A stretch of DNA of 64,000 nt from assembly GCA_903825645.1 (NCBI GenBank), contig CAIKBL010000038.1:22837-86836 (forward strand). The letters are read 5' to 3'. The stretch is from an uncultured Pseudomonadota bacterium (lineage in GTDB: Bacteria > Pseudomonadota > Gammaproteobacteria > Ga0077536). Below the pieces are notes generated by a model, which was not told where the DNA came from, made no database searches, and saw only the letters and a list, made by a program, of their open reading frames with translations. Made by a program: the position numbers and the translations under genes. Of the stretch, positions 11,658 to 20,330 are shown piece by piece (the stretch's first letter is position 1; every line of letters starts with the position of its first letter).

Positions 11658-14600
11658 TTAAGTGCCTCGATAGTGTCGATTTCCTCTACCCGTGTTAGCC
11701 GATATTTTCAGCGGTCGGACCTGGATAGCCATAATGATGAGAAGACAAAACATAAACGCTATCTTAGGCGAGTCCAGTATGCTGTCAGTGATCCCAACCA
11801 CCAGACAACCCGCGAGAGAGGCCCGAAGAATGACGGACATCGGGTTATTTCGCGCTCTTCGAAGCCGATGAAACGCGTAGGCACACAACGCCATAAAGGT
11901 TAACAAGCACAACCAACCCTGTTCGACGAGGAGATGCACCCACAAGCTTTTAGCATGCCAGTGGACATGAAGGTCGTTGGTAAAAAACCACCTGTCATGG
12001 CCTGCAACGAAATTGCCATTTTCCAAAACCTCACGCCCATCGCGATCTCTCATCGACAACGTCCTCAAGAAAACAGGTCCGACGTTACCACTGTCGGACG
12101 CTATTGAGAAATAGAGCGGCTTTTGCACGGTCTTCAGCGTCGTCAAGTCAAGTTTATCCGTAATTTCCTGCCACTGGCCGGGTATCGGCCCGGAGTGGAA
12201 AGAAGCAGAGACACAGTCGATCGAATAAAGAATACTTTGCGTGCAGATGCTGATCGAACCCCCTTGGTCTACGTTCGGCGACATAAGGGCCAGTCGTAAT
12301 CGATAGGTGGCCGCGCGCATATTCGGCAAACGCTGCAGCAGAAATGTGGGTGTGCCCACACCAAACTGAAGCGCGCGCTCCCCATCCAAATCGACGACCT
12401 GATAGGTCGCGGGTGTCTTTCTAGGATCCTGATTGAGCAATCTTAACTTCGGATAGCTTCCTGTCCCGGCCCCAAATAGCGTGTTAGTAATACCTGGAGG
12501 GCGCAAGTGAAGGGAGTACTCCCACTGCGTAAGCCGATCCTGAAAATCGTTGCCCAATACTGCCCAGCGTGAGCGTGCAAACTCAGACGACCTCGTCACA
12601 GAGACCATGCCGGTTACGAGCGCCAACAACCCCAAAAAAAGAAATATACGGCGTCGTACCCCCCCGGCATGTTTGTCGAGAGCCAAAACGATAATAAGGA
12701 TCGAGACGGCGATGGCAGCCGCATCGATCCGAGAGAAGGTCAGAATTAAAACAAAAAATCCGCTGGCGAACAAACTCACCCCTAAAATTCCCGCACGCCA
12801 TCCTCGCCACACGAGGAACAAGCCCGTAATGAAGGGGAGACTCATCACAAGATAAGCGTCAATACTGCCACCGCCTACGTTCATCTCATTGAAGTTGGCC
12901 ATTGCCCTAAAATCCTTGGCCAAATCAAAAAGTCCGACAAAGTTATGTCGTTCCAGTATCGCCGCCAAGGTAGTCCCCGCGAGCCCTATCAATACCCCCG
13001 GCAACCACCATGTTGCGATCCGCCTTCGATCTGCGAATGCAGGCGCGAGTACCGGCGTCAAAATAAAGGCCCACAGCACCCCCTTGCCCACCCGAAGGGC
13101 GTTGTACGGACTGTAGAAGCTTGAAAAAGAATTCACTTCTAGGGAAGGGAAAGGCCAAGCGCCTCGTGCGATTCCAATACCGAAAAGAAAGACGAATCCA
13201 TACCAGAGATTACGGCCTGCCTTAGGAAGGGCTGTCCCGTCGCCTGTAAGTTCTGCGACAGCACCCGGTTTGATCAGTAGCACAGCGAGCGTCAGCGTCA
13301 GAAGCAAATCAAACTCCGTCCAAAAGAATCGCCCTGTGCGGTCTGCCAAATCGACCAGCGGCAAACAAATCGGGATCATCAAAAGGCACGCCGCTGGGCG
13401 CCACCAGAGGATGATGGCGTAAGCGATGAGCCCGACTCCAAGGAGGGGTTTGTAAATTGGGAAACTGGCAACGCTAACCAACGCCACCACCGACAATCCC
13501 AGCCCGAGAATAATCCGCAGTGGATTGGATGATGGGCGTGCCGCTGCCTCTACGGTTGCCAACACTTGCGTTTCGGGCAACGCTTCCGCAGCGTGAACAT
13601 TATCCCCCATGACCGCCAAGACGGCGGCGGCCAGATAGGCGCTGCCCGCCGCGAGAAAAACGTTGGTCGGATCCGGATTCTTGCCCACTACAAAAAGCTT
13701 GGCGGCCTCAAGGCACGCCGAGATCAGCAACGCAAGTAATGCCGGGTTCCACTCGGAGTATCTTGTGCTTCCTTGGACTTTCCGCCATAGCCAAAATCCA
13801 GCCCCTATTGGCGAAAACATGCCGAAAACGCTGAGAACGCTTGCAACAGCGTGTGTCTCAGTCGTGTAGTAATGATAATAAAATGGCATGAATCTGACCG
13901 AATCGAGCTTGACTAATGCCTCCGTCAGGCTCACCCAGTGGCTGATCAATCCGTTCAAATCGCTAATCACGATCAGGTAGGGGATGAAAACAACAAGCAG
14001 TCCCGTACTGGTCCAAGACGGCAGCTTGACCCCCTGCGTTAAGATGGCTCGGGTACTCCACCAGCCCAGTGCCATCCCGACCATTCGACTGAGCACGGAA
14101 GCCCCTTGACTCACACCGCTGGCGAGAAAAAGTTGGGTGATTTCGATGCTGATGCCAAGTAGCGCGCCGATAGCCACCGCCCCAAGCCAACCTTTGCGGC
14201 GCGGCCATCCCTGGAGCACCCACAGCCCCCCCAATGGGGCCGTCGAAAGACCTTCTCCGATGATCAGTGCCAATCTTCTGATTGGCTCTGACCAGAAACC
14301 TGGCGTGGTCAACCAACCAAAGTTTCCGCCCGCCAATTTTTCGGAGAATTCGGCGGTTGAGACCACAAAATCAAAGGGAAAAATGGCAAGCGTTAAATAT
14401 CCCGCTGCGTACAAGCCGAGACCCACAACGATCGCCTTCAGCCCCCTGTTCTTCAGCGCACTTTGCCAGTTGCCCATAAAGGGTTTGACCGACAACCACA
14501 TCGCAATACCGATTCCGGTTCCCAGCGTTTCCGCCACCAAGTCGTTAATCGAGACGGTTCTAGGAGGATCAAATTGCTGAAAATATTCCACCGCGAATGC

Positions 14601-14924
14601 AGTAAAAATCGAGATTGTGGCCGAGAACAAGACCGCCAATACAGACCGTAGCCCGATTTTATTAGTTCTGTCCAAAACGGAGCAAAGTCCCGCTGAGAGC
14701 GGTATGTAGAGCAGGATATTGGCGATCCAGTCTGCTCTGGACCCCATGCCCAGATCGAGGTTTTGAATGTGTTGAAAATTCGCCCACCCGGCCTCGAAGT
14801 CGATTGGCTTGAAATCGAAAGGAACCAGACTGCCGTAAATGACGAATGCCCAGTAAAACGCCGTGAGCGCCTCGCTTGACGGCAAAATATCGCGCGTAAC
14901 TACCGTATTTTGTTCACTTTTCAC
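11658..14924 (-). CDS. Multi-pass membrane protein: two VanZ-like regions fused to an O-antigen ligase-like region
   Basis: A 1088-residue integral membrane protein. The first VanZ-like region spans about residues 20-160 (YGSLVPFDF, then ADWIANILLYIPL), and a second follows around 175-310 (AIFPFDF near its start). Several membrane segments lead into a Wzy/O-antigen-ligase-like region from about 490, which has a long extracytoplasmic insert near 820-990 before the last membrane segments. O-antigen ligase-type proteins join or transfer glycan chains on the periplasmic side; VanZ has a poorly understood cell-wall role. The position in a polysaccharide-rich region fits polymerisation or ligation of the glycan. 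The second, cleaner O-ligase gene in the operon (41346-42599) suggests two distinct steps. The fusion is the notable point. Confidence 0.82.
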   Translation of the reverse strand: MKSEQNTVVTRDILPSSEALTAFYWAFVIYGSLVPFDFKPIDFEAGWANFQHIQNLDLGMGSRADWIANILLYIPLSAGLCSVLDRTNKIGLRSVLAVLFSATISIFTAFAVEYFQQFDPPRTVSINDLVAETLGTGIGIAMWLSVKPFMGNWQSALKNRGLKAIVVGLGLYAAGYLTLAIFPFDFVVSTAEFSEKLAGGNFGWLTTPGFWSEPIRRLALIIGEGLSTAPLGGLWVLQGWPRRKGWLGAVAIGALLGISIEITQLFLASGVSQGASVLSRMVGMALGWWSTRAILTQGVKLPSWTSTGLLVVFIPYLIVISDLNGLISHWVSLTEALVKLDSVRFMPFYYHYYTTETHAVASVLSVFGMFSPIGAGFWLWRKVQGSTRYSEWNPALLALLISACLEAAKLFVVGKNPDPTNVFLAAGSAYLAAAVLAVMGDNVHAAEALPETQVLATVEAAARPSSNPLRIILGLGLSVVALVSVASFPIYKPLLGVGLIAYAIILWWRPAACLLMIPICLPLVDLADRTGRFFWTEFDLLLTLTLAVLLIKPGAVAELTGDGTALPKAGRNLWYGFVFLFGIGIARGAWPFPSLEVNSFSSFYSPYNALRVGKGVLWAFILTPVLAPAFADRRRIATWWLPGVLIGLAGTTLAAILERHNFVGLFDLAKDFRAMANFNEMNVGGGSIDAYLVMSLPFITGLFLVWRGWRAGILGVSLFASGFFVLILTFSRIDAAAIAVSILIIVLALDKHAGGVRRRIFLFLGLLALVTGMVSVTRSSEFARSRWAVLGNDFQDRLTQWEYSLHLRPPGITNTLFGAGTGSYPKLRLLNQDPRKTPATYQVVDLDGERALQFGVGTPTFLLQRLPNMRAATYRLRLALMSPNVDQGGSISICTQSILYSIDCVSASFHSGPIPGQWQEITDKLDLTTLKTVQKPLYFSIASDSGNVGPVFLRTLSMRDRDGREVLENGNFVAGHDRWFFTNDLHVHWHAKSLWVHLLVEQGWLCLLTFMALCAYAFHRLRRARNNPMSVILRASLAGCLVVGITDSILDSPKIAFMFCLLIIMAIQVRPLKISANTGRGNRHYRGT

Positions 14925-15635: not shown

Positions 15636-16103
15636 TTAAAATCCAACTGCGCTACCCGAGACGTGACCTGTGCTTTGCAGGTCTTCCGTCAGACTATGAA
15701 GCAGCCGACCCACTACACTCTTACCAAATGTCATGTTCGGCACTTCCTTTTCAAGCCCCGCGAGATTTTTGGGAGCCCCTTCACCAACAACGATTGCGCC
15801 CACCATTCCGGCAGTCATGTGCGGATTACATCGATAAAGGTAGACGCCCTCCTGAATAAGTCTCACGGTGAAACCGTCCTCACCCATTTGGGCTTTCCAT
15901 GGGGCTGCCCCCGCGGGTAGCATGCCGGGGATAGTTTCAGTGTCATGGCCGGCCATCTGCGCCCATTTCACGGTGTCTCCAGGCTGGACATAGAGGATCT
16001 GCGGCGCCCAACTGGTCACCACAGCGTTGATAGTGTATTCAGCTGCGCTCACGCTTGAGCCCACCAAGAGCAGGAGCGCCACCCATCCTCGACTCAACGT
16101 CAT
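15636..16103 (-). CDS. Secreted cupredoxin (pseudoazurin/plastocyanin-like)
   Basis: A 155-residue protein with a signal peptide (about residues 1-21, ending SSVSAA). The type 1 copper site can be read: His53 in GHDTETIP, then Cys92, His95 and Met100 in RCNPHMTAGM. The C-x2-H-x4-M spacing is that of pseudoazurin and related blue copper proteins. It should be a periplasmic one-electron carrier. About 30 residues follow the copper loop that are not part of the basic cupredoxin fold. The gene lies 128 bases downstream of the PQQ-dehydrogenase-like gene on the same strand, which suggests it takes electrons from, or works beside, that protein. Confidence 0.9.
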   Translation of the reverse strand: MTLSRGWVALLLLVGSSVSAAEYTINAVVTSWAPQILYVQPGDTVKWAQMAGHDTETIPGMLPAGAAPWKAQMGEDGFTVRLIQEGVYLYRCNPHMTAGMVGAIVVGEGAPKNLAGLEKEVPNMTFGKSVVGRLLHSLTEDLQSTGHVSGSAVGF

Positions 16104-16231: not shown

Positions 16232-18073
16232 CTACGGCAGACTGAATACGCTCAGCACGCCACCCGCCCGGGTGAATCGTCCCAAATTCTTGTAGACCTC
16301 TCCGGCCCCAATCCGATCCGAACCATGCGCCGAGTCGGGACCAACCAAGGGGTCACCAAGTCCCGACAAAACGCCCACATATTGCTTGCCTCTGTGGCCC
16401 CAAGTATTCACCGTCCCAACGATACCGGAGGGTGTCTTGAACTGCCACAGTAACTTGCCGGTATTGGCATCGATAGCTTTAAGATATCCCTCAAGTGTTC
16501 CGTAAAACACGAGATCTCCTGCCGTAGCCAGTGCGCCGCTCGCAATAGGGAAACGTTCTGGGAGAGACCACTTAATTTTCCCACGCGTGGGATCCCAAGC
16601 AATAAAATTGCCGAAATTGTCGTCCTCTGCGTTATTGGCGAACATCGTTCCGGGCGACACGCTTCCCGCTGGAAACAGGCTTGCTTTCATAAGCCGGTTC
16701 GCAGGCTGGTCGCCCAACGTTTCGGTTTGAAGTACAGCGCCTACATTCATGCAAGCGTGTACCGTCGGCACATAGAACAACCCGGTTTTCGGGCTGTACG
16801 AGGCAGGTCCGTTACCTTTCGCGCCCAGCGATGACGGGCAGACGTCACGGGCTCCCGTATTGTTACTTTTGTGTGTCACGCTATATCGCGACACGACCAG
16901 CGGTCGACCCGTTTTCACGTCAATATGGGTAGCCCAGTTGACGGTCGGATCAAATTTATCGGCAAGCAGAAGCGCGCCATCGGTGCGATCTAGCGTATAA
17001 CTAAACCCGTTCTTATCAAAATGGACCAGCGCTTTGCGCACGCTACCCTTTATATTGATATCCGCCAAGATCACTTCCCCCGAGGCGCCATAATGCCACG
17101 CGTCATTTGGCGTCACCTGATAGATCCATTTGGTAAGCCCAGTGTCGACGTCGCGGGCGAAAATGGCACTCGACCATTTCTTGTCACCCGACTTGGCAAG
17201 CGATTTGCCATCAGCGGGGCTCCCCGTCCCATAGAGCAGGAGATTCTCGGCCCGATCGAAGGAAAACCAAGTCGGGGGTGCACCGCCACCGGATCTCCCC
17301 TGCTCAGCCGTTCCGCTCTGCAACGAAGAATCCACGCCCACAGGCTCGCCGAGGGATAGTGTTTTCGCCGGATCGACGAGCAGGTCACTGTCAGGACCGG
17401 TATCGTAAGCGCGCCACGCCCGCTTGCCGTCCTTTAGATCGTAAGCATCGACCCAGCCCCGCCCGTCACTGTCCGTCCCAGTGGCGATGACTTTATCCTT
17501 TACGACGTGGGGCGTATTCGTACTGGCCTGCCACTTGCCATCCGCATCACGGACCGACCACACGATGGTGCCATCCCTAACGTTGAGTGCCACAAGCGCG
17601 GTATTGCTCTGCTGAAGCAGGATCTTGCCCGCACCGTAAGCGAGTCCTCGACTAGGCGCCCCACAGCAGATTGCTAATTTCTGAGCCTCCGGGTTCGGCG
17701 GGGGCGCGTATTCCCAGAGCACTTCTTGGGAGTCGAGATTGATCGCAAAAACACGATCGCCCACAGCGCGGATGAGAAGCGTGTCACCATTGAGTCCAGT
17801 GGCCGCAGCGGGGAGAACCAAAGATCCCCCCTCATGCTCACCTAATACGCCGGTCGCGAACGTCCAGGCGGTTTTAATTTTTTGCACGTTGGTGGCATTA
17901 ATCTGGTTAAGTTCAGAATAGCGCCAGTTCCAATAGTTACCGCCGGGATACGCCCATGCATTTGGATCCTGCATCAACCGCTCAAGTTCCATATCGGCGG
18001 TAGCGGTAGCTGACATCAGCATAACTGACGCCGCGGCAGCCCATGCAATCCCCCGGCACAACCACTTGTTCAT
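16232..18073 (-). CDS. PQQ-dependent methanol/ethanol dehydrogenase homologue with altered metal site
   Basis: A 613-residue protein with a signal peptide (residues 1-26) and the eight-bladed PQQ-dehydrogenase layout. The vicinal disulfide pair is present (Cys136-Cys137 in LAICCGAPSRGLAY), as are the later DVCPSS/HACMN cysteines and a C-terminus like XoxF/MxaF (FTRAGGVLSVFSLP). The metal and catalytic residues appear changed. The WDY(A/D)G catalytic Asp of MxaF/XoxF is His327 in NDAWHYGA, the metal Asn of GSGNP is Ser285 in YGTGSP, and the metal Glu of GAE lies in a rewritten segment, GTDSDGRGW. Family members oxidise alcohols with PQQ and calcium or a lanthanide; this one may bind PQQ without normal activity. 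Good ribosome site (gagg) before the ATG. Downstream partner: the cupredoxin gene. Confidence 0.88.
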   Translation of the reverse strand: MNKWLCRGIAWAAAASVMLMSATATADMELERLMQDPNAWAYPGGNYWNWRYSELNQINATNVQKIKTAWTFATGVLGEHEGGSLVLPAAATGLNGDTLLIRAVGDRVFAINLDSQEVLWEYAPPPNPEAQKLAICCGAPSRGLAYGAGKILLQQSNTALVALNVRDGTIVWSVRDADGKWQASTNTPHVVKDKVIATGTDSDGRGWVDAYDLKDGKRAWRAYDTGPDSDLLVDPAKTLSLGEPVGVDSSLQSGTAEQGRSGGGAPPTWFSFDRAENLLLYGTGSPADGKSLAKSGDKKWSSAIFARDVDTGLTKWIYQVTPNDAWHYGASGEVILADINIKGSVRKALVHFDKNGFSYTLDRTDGALLLADKFDPTVNWATHIDVKTGRPLVVSRYSVTHKSNNTGARDVCPSSLGAKGNGPASYSPKTGLFYVPTVHACMNVGAVLQTETLGDQPANRLMKASLFPAGSVSPGTMFANNAEDDNFGNFIAWDPTRGKIKWSLPERFPIASGALATAGDLVFYGTLEGYLKAIDANTGKLLWQFKTPSGIVGTVNTWGHRGKQYVGVLSGLGDPLVGPDSAHGSDRIGAGEVYKNLGRFTRAGGVLSVFSLP

Positions 18074-18561
18074 GATGGCTCCTCATTCCTGTGTAATCGA
18101 AGGTATTGGGCGTTTTGTCACGTCGGCAGGCCACCGACTCGGGATGTTGCCGTCCTCGTGGGAAAGCGAGTGAAAGGTGCCCTGATGGGGAAAACCACCA
18201 CACTTTTTCCGAAATAGCCGCTTCTTTGCAACCAGCTCCGTTGCGTGGCGCCGCAAGATTATAGGTGCTGGGACGCTTCGAGTAACGCCGCCCGGCAGAC
18301 CCTTTGCGAGAAAAATCACGCCAGATGACCGCCACCCAACTCGCACGCTAACATGCTTCTCAATTCAGGAAGTCTTGGTTTTAAAGGCCGCTTTTCGGTC
18401 GACAAATTGCATCGTTCGGAAAGCCTCTTGGATTTACCGGATTTCGCGTGGGGTTAGACGCTTTATTGTTGTGTGGTTCTGCCGCTACAGGTGCGCATGG
18501 GCACGCCTGCCGGCGAAGTTCTGGGCCGCGCCGCGCTTTAGTCAAGAATGGAAATGAAATA
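18074..18561. other. Divergent intergenic region, PQQ protein gene / galE
   Basis: 488 bases between the starts of the PQQ-dehydrogenase-like gene and galE. Promoters for both must lie here but I find no convincing pair. The ORF-track extension of galE to 18448 is not supported by family similarity. Confidence 0.4.
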
Positions 18562-19569
18562 ATGGCCAATGTTTTAGTGACGGGCGGTGCAGGCTACATC
18601 GGGAGTCATGTCGTCAAACGTCTGGGACGCGCCGGCCATCAGGTGGTGACACTCGACAACCTGTCGAAAGGCAATCGTAATGCCGTCGTGTACGGAAAAT
18701 TAATCATCGGCGACACCGGCGACGCCGAACTTGTGTCTCAAATCCTGCACGAGCATGAGATCGATACCGTTATGCACTTCGCAGCGTGGACTATTGTACC
18801 GGAATCGGTTAGTGAGCCGTTGAAATACTATAGGAACAATACCTGCAGCGCGCGCAACCTCATTGAATGTTGCGTCGAAAACCGTGTGAGCCGTTTCATT
18901 TTTTCATCAACCGCGGCTGTCTACGGTATTCCGGAAACATCGATATGTCGCGAAGACACACCGAAGGCTCCCATCAATCCCTATGGCGCGTCAAAACTGA
19001 TGGCTGAGCAGATTTTACGGGACGCTTGTGCTGCGAGCAGTATGCGATACGTTGTATTACGGTATTTCAATGTGGCCGGCTCCGATCCTGAAGCGGAAAT
19101 AGGCCAATCGACCCGTGACGCGACGTTACTGATTAAAGTCGCCTGCGAAGTCGCGACGGGAAAGCGCACCGTTCTTCAGGTTTTCGGAACGGACTATCCA
19201 ACCCGCGACGGCACCGGTATTCGCGATTACATCCACGTGTGTGATCTCGCTGATGCGCATTTAGGTGCGCTCGACTATCTGTCGCTTGACGGCCTCTCCA
19301 CTACCCTCAATTGTGGATATGGTCACGGTTATAGCGTCCGGGAAGTGATCAGTGCGGTGGAGCGTCTCACGGGGAAGGCACTACCAGTGATCTACGAGCC
19401 CCGTCGGGCCGGTGATCCCCCGGAGTTGATCGCGGATTCGGAAGCATTGCATGCTCGGTTCAATTGGCAGCCACAATTTGACGATTTAACCGAGATCGTT
19501 CGGTCTTCGCTCGAGTGGGAACGCAAAATTGCGGCAGGTGATGTGACAGAGGGTCGGGCCAACCGATGA
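18562..19569 (+). CDS. galE: UDP-glucose 4-epimerase
   Basis: A 335-residue SDR-type epimerase. It has the NAD-binding start MANVLVTGGAGYIGSHVVK, SSTAAVYG with the active-site Ser/Thr region, and the catalytic pair in NPYGASKL (Tyr-x3-Lys). The later segment TRDGTGIRDYIHVCDLADAH is typical of GalE. It interconverts UDP-glucose and UDP-galactose (or the GlcNAc/GalNAc forms) and so supplies sugar donors for the polysaccharide locus. I start it at the ATG at 18562, which aligns with other GalE proteins; the track begins 38 codons earlier. Its stop overlaps the next start as ATGA, so the two are co-translated. Confidence 0.95.
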   Translation: MANVLVTGGAGYIGSHVVKRLGRAGHQVVTLDNLSKGNRNAVVYGKLIIGDTGDAELVSQILHEHEIDTVMHFAAWTIVPESVSEPLKYYRNNTCSARNLIECCVENRVSRFIFSSTAAVYGIPETSICREDTPKAPINPYGASKLMAEQILRDACAASSMRYVVLRYFNVAGSDPEAEIGQSTRDATLLIKVACEVATGKRTVLQVFGTDYPTRDGTGIRDYIHVCDLADAHLGALDYLSLDGLSTTLNCGYGHGYSVREVISAVERLTGKALPVIYEPRRAGDPPELIADSEALHARFNWQPQFDDLTEIVRSSLEWERKIAAGDVTEGRANR

Positions 19570-20330
19570 TGTTGCTACTACTTCGCGGCCTGATCGTGGG
19601 TCTACTACTCGCCACCTCTTTTGCTCCCTTCGCCACTGAATTGCCCGATCTCGTCGCGACCGTCCGCCCCAGCGTTGTCGGCATAGGGACCTTTGTCGCG
19701 CTTCGTAGCCCCCAGCATCAATTGTCCGGCACGGGTTTTATTGTCGGCGATGGCCACCTCGTGATCACCAATTATCATGTCGTTGCGGGCTCTGAAATGT
19801 CGCCCGAAAAAAGCGGGGACCTCGTCGTGTTCATAGGACGCGGCAGGACTCCCGATGTCCGGCGTGCCACTGTCGCCGCTGAAGACCGATTCCATGATCT
19901 GGCCGTGTTAAAGATAACCGGCCCGGCAGGCCCTAGCTTGACATTGAATGCTGCACTGGAGGTGAGAGAAGGCGGCTCAGTAGCCATCATGGGCTTCCCG
20001 ATCGGCGCTGTTCTCGGCCTCTATCCCGCCACGAATTCAGGCATCGTATCAGCGGTCAGCCCCATCGCGATTCCCCAGGGTTCCCCTCAGGCATTAACCG
20101 CCGCACAGATCCGCCGTCTTAGAGATCCCTTCGAAGTTTACCAACTGGACATCATCGCCTATCCTGGCAACAGTGGTAGTCCCGTCTTTGATGTGCGTTC
20201 GGGAACCGTGATCGGGGTAGTAAACAGTGTCCTGGCCCGAAGTGGAAAGGAAGGCTTGCTTAAGGATCCGTCTGCGATTACTTATGCGATTCCGATCCAA
20301 CATGCGTTGAAGCTATTGGAGATCCGCTGA
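19566..20330 (+). CDS. Secreted trypsin-like serine protease (S1C, HtrA-like, no PDZ)
   Basis: A 254-residue protein with an N-terminal signal sequence (about residues 1-24). The catalytic triad is visible: His71 in TNYHVVAG, Asp111 in HDLAVLKI and Ser203 in YPGNSGSPVF. There is no PDZ domain, unlike DegP/DegS, so it is a protease domain alone. The start codon overlaps the galE stop (ATGA), which ties it to sugar-nucleotide or polysaccharide functions. It may trim or control envelope proteins linked to the polysaccharide system; the target is unknown. Confidence 0.9.
   Translation: MMLLLLRGLIVGLLLATSFAPFATELPDLVATVRPSVVGIGTFVALRSPQHQLSGTGFIVGDGHLVITNYHVVAGSEMSPEKSGDLVVFIGRGRTPDVRRATVAAEDRFHDLAVLKITGPAGPSLTLNAALEVREGGSVAIMGFPIGAVLGLYPATNSGIVSAVSPIAIPQGSPQALTAAQIRRLRDPFEVYQLDIIAYPGNSGSPVFDVRSGTVIGVVNSVLARSGKEGLLKDPSAITYAIPIQHALKLLEIR

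Follow-up and report, generated by a model that had tools for sequence, protein, structure and literature searches.

A degenerate XoxF ortholog, probably non-catalytic, in a gammaproteobacterium lacking the C1 oxidation genes of its congeners

An ORF on the minus strand (16232..18073) of the window, as we term the whole 64,000-nucleotide stretch of DNA analysed, encodes a 613-aa protein that has the signal peptide and the overall sequence of a XoxF-type methanol dehydrogenase, but with replacements at the positions of the metal and catalytic ligands. This raises the question of where such a gene came from and what its product might still do. The initial annotation had recognized a XoxF/MxaF-like protein with a rewritten metal and catalytic site, leaving the strand unstated, and that observation is confirmed. 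We consider it probable that the gene is what remains of xoxF now that the C1 pathway has gone, its product being catalytically dead and most likely retained in a non-catalytic role.

A full-length XoxF-like protein

The reading frame of 613 codons is intact, with an ATG start, an upstream AGGAG ribosome site and zero internal stops, and its N-terminus reads as a signal peptide. XoxF-like similarity spans the entire protein. The top match in the PDB, the XoxF5-type lanthanide methanol dehydrogenase of Methylomicrobium buryatense (6DAM), aligns end to end and is also the top Foldseek match (TM 0.77 by query, 0.84 by target) of a structure model that is itself shallow (20 sequences, pLDDT 66.6; a canonical control reached 71.2 and was poor at the active site too) and is read here for the fold only. 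The protein scores 495 bits with the NCBIfam model for methanol/ethanol PQQ dehydrogenases (TIGR03075), barely above the cut-off of 480, versus 681 bits for the XoxF of a congener. The vicinal pair Cys136-Cys137 (codons 17663..17668, minus strand) is present, as had been annotated, and is shared with 6DAM, together with C412 and C441, and with the calcium-dependent methanol dehydrogenase MxaF (1H4I), which has the same fold. No mxaI-like ORF was seen beside the window gene.

The idea of a cofactor-free quinoprotein fold is conveyed by the name of the acido-empty-quinoprotein group A (TIGR04528), but the window protein scores 231.9 bits with this model, against a cut-off of 650, and canonical XoxF scores higher, at 271; on these scores the window protein is independent of that group. 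With BamB and YxaL it has in common a PQQ-repeat-type propeller, but the fold likeness is only distant (TM about 0.41-0.46). As BamB exemplifies, a propeller fold can exist without catalysis, and by analogy a binding or scaffolding role would fit the fold of the window protein.

Replacement of active-site residues

The metal and catalytic ligands of 6DAM are Glu197, Asn285, Asp327 and Asp329, and the extra lanthanide-binding Asp is described as present in every XoxF protein (PMC11845868). At the last three of these positions, where the numbering of the two proteins is identical, the window protein has Ser285 (17219..17221, minus strand) in place of the metal-binding Asn, His327 (17093..17095, minus strand) where the DYD motif has the catalytic Asp and, two residues further on, Gly329 (17087..17089, minus strand) in place of the lanthanide-specific Asp. 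The changes to Ser285 and His327 had been annotated from the outset and are seen in the alignments. The accompanying statement that the Glu segment is replaced holds in part: the Glu itself is gone and there is a two-residue deletion, but the segment is not simply absent, as in three alignments Asp201 (17471..17473, minus strand, coordinates computed from the residue number), a conservative change, aligns after the deletion with the metal-binding Glu197. With the two Asp ligands, catalytic and lanthanide-specific, and the Asn lost, the normal calcium or lanthanide mechanism is ruled out, as had been argued. By comparison with MxaF, there are no equivalents of Asn261, Asp303 and Trp243, and Glu177 is Asp.

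Gly329 adds to the changes first described, as do three replacements in the pocket, where the roles of residues beyond the four ligands are assigned by reference to MxaF structures. The PQQ-stacking Trp is Pro267 (17273..17275, minus strand) and the second pocket Trp, opposite the first, is Ala511 (16541..16543, minus strand), so that neither Trp of 6DAM is retained, and the equivalent of Arg331 (MxaF number) is Lys354. Glu81, Arg142, Thr185, Gly199 and Gly553 are kept, in addition to the Cys pair.

Locus and descent

On one side of the window gene are two conserved neighbours, encoding a GalE-type epimerase (18448..19569, plus strand), which marks the position of the xoxF slot and is our control for divergence, and a trypsin-like protease (19566..20330, plus strand); on the other side is a gene for a pseudoazurin-like cupredoxin (15636..16103, minus strand; likely copper ligands H53, C92, H95 and M100), the conserved partner of xoxF in the family. 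The order galE, xoxF, cupredoxin is common to the window, to the congeners G001, G002 and G004 and to the genome G030. Congeners with enough sequence, and G030, have galE, usually a gene for a small periplasmic protein, xoxF and the cupredoxin gene, followed in most such loci by genes for XoxJ and a second periplasmic protein. The window locus lacks the small periplasmic protein, XoxJ, the second periplasmic protein, formate dehydrogenase and the Fhc genes, and the place of the last four is occupied, after the cupredoxin gene, by a gene for a VanZ-domain membrane protein (11658..14924, minus strand). This 1088-aa protein is encoded beside polysaccharide genes and has 33-36% identity among congeners. 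A conserved protein of ~140 aa, encoded just upstream of canonical xoxF (L092:6963-7382, L090:8184-8603) and missing from the window, and a second conserved protein encoded after XoxJ (L092:11621-12454, L090:12809-13624) have no Pfam or NCBIfam match. No XoxF was found in G003 or G005, which may reflect assembly gaps; in G005, the contig breaks off immediately upstream of the cupredoxin gene.

The congeners' XoxF proteins in this slot have all of the ligands and are 91-92% identical among themselves; the window protein is 60-62% identical to them. GalE is 75-81% identical between window and congeners and 79-81% among congeners, and differences at four-fold silent sites are alike in xoxF (0.61-0.69) and galE (0.64-0.71). 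This xoxF has therefore been in its slot no longer than its neighbours have been in theirs and, as the divergence of GalE is ordinary, the acceleration is specific to xoxF. The cupredoxin is mildly accelerated, with 56-58% identity between window and congeners versus 69-77% among congeners. In a tree, the window protein pairs, on a long branch, with that of the congener L015; in an AU test, placement outside the family was rejected at p 0.045, a borderline value given the long branch, and placement within the genus was not rejected. The closest relatives and the locus of the gene are those of xoxF. The possibilities of an old paralog or a foreign gene are ruled out by the locus, the identity gradient and the silent divergence.

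A single divergent ortholog

A conserved clade of proteins with the AWHYG motif beside cupredoxin genes, as envisaged in the initial annotation, was not found; a cupredoxin neighbour is indeed conserved, but it goes with canonical XoxF. No AWHYG form was detected outside this genome in a peptide-pattern scan of 84,980 species genomes, made with six 8-residue patterns and so open to escape by relatives sharing none of the six, nor among 36 genomes of the family, an even sample of the class or plasmids (searched by identity). All of the homologues gathered from genome contigs, the family and the class sample that are readable at the position keep the catalytic Asp, and 27 of 27 XoxF-like homologues keep the Glu, the Asn, both Asp residues and the stacking Trp. 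The window protein differs at 84 of 277 columns that are invariant in 19 canonical XoxF proteins, versus 0-10 for canonical members left out in turn, and its divergence is therefore not due to chance. In these searches and comparisons, in which the form turned up in this genome alone, the window gene is a single rogue ortholog, and the idea that it belongs to an AWHYG clade is rejected. A search of the literature on inactive XoxF or empty quinoproteins returned no pertinent report.

Loss of the C1 pathway

The source genome is 99.5% complete. Fae, FhcD and Mch are absent from it, with only a 23-bit stretch under the cut-off for Mch, whereas each of the five congeners has all three and the formate dehydrogenase of the cluster. 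Also absent is XoxJ, which, like the C1 pathway, would be expected to accompany XoxF; all five congeners have it at least as a fragment (pieces only in G001 and G003). The cluster formate dehydrogenase is 81-84% identical among congeners, whereas the top match in the source genome is a 38% paralog; G004 has a similar paralog beside its own cluster copy. Within the genus, the loss of Fae, FhcD, Mch, XoxJ and the cluster formate dehydrogenase is unique to the source genome (G000).

PQQ synthesis is kept, as PqqE is present, and the nearest other PQQ dehydrogenases of the source genome have the Asp motif intact. The cofactor has thus been kept, and it is the pathway using the product that has been lost. 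Loss of the whole C1 pathway gives a simpler account of the altered site than either proposal of the initial annotation, namely a sensor or carrier of PQQ or redox chemistry with a different metal, and nothing found points to these.

Retention or decay

The gene is a xoxF ortholog by position and identity gradient, every metal and catalytic residue has been lost (the Glu being, at best, an Asp), the frame is intact, protein change is accelerated specifically in this gene and C1 pathway genes have been lost from the genome. On the reading that we favour, this would be the lineage's own xoxF, still in the ancestral slot but no longer encoding an active PQQ/lanthanide methanol dehydrogenase, H4MPT-linked C1 oxidation having been lost from the same lineage. 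Synthesis and export of the protein would continue, and it would fold into an eight-bladed propeller around an emptied funnel. It would not oxidize methanol, since the base, the metal and the stacking residues are gone, and selection would now maintain the propeller and not the catalytic funnel, most likely for a non-catalytic periplasmic role in scaffolding, binding or signalling. The reading rests on one genome, with no close ortholog having the same changes.

Plain decay, in which the gene is on its way to becoming a pseudogene, now lacks a function and owes its intact frame to luck and to constraint that predates inactivation, is unlikely but deserves serious consideration. It would be consistent with the loss of the C1 pathway, with change at 29-30% of otherwise invariant positions and with the related genomes G016 and G022, from which xoxF is gone and in which the cupredoxin gene is still there. 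A neutral course would, however, have left its mark on the frame: the gene has accumulated ~150-180 replacements beyond those in other XoxF proteins of the family with zero stops or frameshifts where ~8 stops are expected, and in neutral simulations with 180 replacements there was a mean of 8.4 stops and none of 200 runs was stop-free. The 613 codons have no stop, so that the broken frame of a plain pseudogene is not seen, and the start codon and ribosome site are intact.

The changes also avoid conserved positions and blade segments, affecting 29% of fully conserved positions versus 54% of variable ones (p 6e-5), and they are unevenly distributed along the gene (p 6e-9). The invariant residues on the catalytic side are changed in 8 of 8 cases, versus 76 of 269 other invariant columns (p 6e-5), a set picked after the sequence had been seen; for the four published ligands alone, p is 0.008. 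An omega of 1 on the window branch is rejected by 173 log units, with silent sites saturated and so no value for omega. Part of the observed constraint may predate inactivation. These comparisons indicate that the gene is evolving fast but not neutrally, without stops and with changes concentrated on the catalytic side, and they make retention in a non-catalytic role more likely than plain decay.

Possible roles and the cupredoxin

A more specific proposal, that within one genus a methanol dehydrogenase has become a periplasmic protein maintained without catalysis, with a new ligand or metal bound in its emptied funnel and the adjoining cupredoxin as its partner, is quite doubtful. In the family, canonical xoxF is followed by genes for the pseudoazurin-like cupredoxin and a XoxJ-type protein (L090, L094, L096 and L098), and no cytochrome cL above the MoxG cut-off was found in 36 family genomes; in this family, XoxF may pass its electrons to the cupredoxin. 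As the same cupredoxin persists in G016, G022, G007 and G009 (L087, L088, L089 and L100), where no XoxF was detected, it probably has another client. For the same reason, its presence was rejected as proof of a working redox partner.

In Methylobacterium, XoxF is reported to act in regulation as well as in catalysis (PMC3507691, PMC9291206), and a sensor or carrier that binds PQQ or another ligand without catalysis had been suggested in the initial annotation. The source genome makes PQQ, the motifs of its other PQQ dehydrogenases are intact, and the side of the pocket that holds the PQQ carboxylates is partly kept, but only at background level; with the stacking Trp lost and no regulator gene beside the window xoxF, such a role appears improbable.

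A new redox or metal chemistry, in which a site newly formed by Asp201, Ser285 and His327 might bind a transition metal and electrons would pass to the cupredoxin, is very improbable. An acid, a hydroxyl and a His do occupy the old ligand positions, the cupredoxin retains its likely copper ligands, and Glu81, Arg142, Thr185 and the Cys pair are kept. The anchor residues, however, are kept in 6 of 7 cases, no more than background (p 0.68), the stacking Trp and the second Trp have given way to Pro and Ala, there is no conserved clade to show that a new site is under selection, and the cupredoxin persists elsewhere without any XoxF. A new non-catalytic periplasmic role is, from this sequence evidence, more likely than new redox chemistry. 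An assembly or sequencing artefact, conceivable as the source, inferred from its 90 contigs, is probably a metagenome-assembled genome, can be dismissed given ~213 replacements without a frameshift or stop, and GC by codon position and silent divergence like those of the neighbours.

Implications

An ortholog of xoxF by position and descent breaks the rule that all XoxF proteins have the extra Asp (PMC11845868), and has also lost the catalytic Asp. Family models name such genes methanol dehydrogenases, as the passing TIGR03075 score exemplifies, and surveys of lanthanide-dependent methylotrophy that depend on family models would therefore overcount. With canonical xoxF in the same slot in its congeners, the window gene lets the states before and after be compared in a single genus, to ask what role is left for a large secreted quinoprotein whose catalysis is no longer needed.
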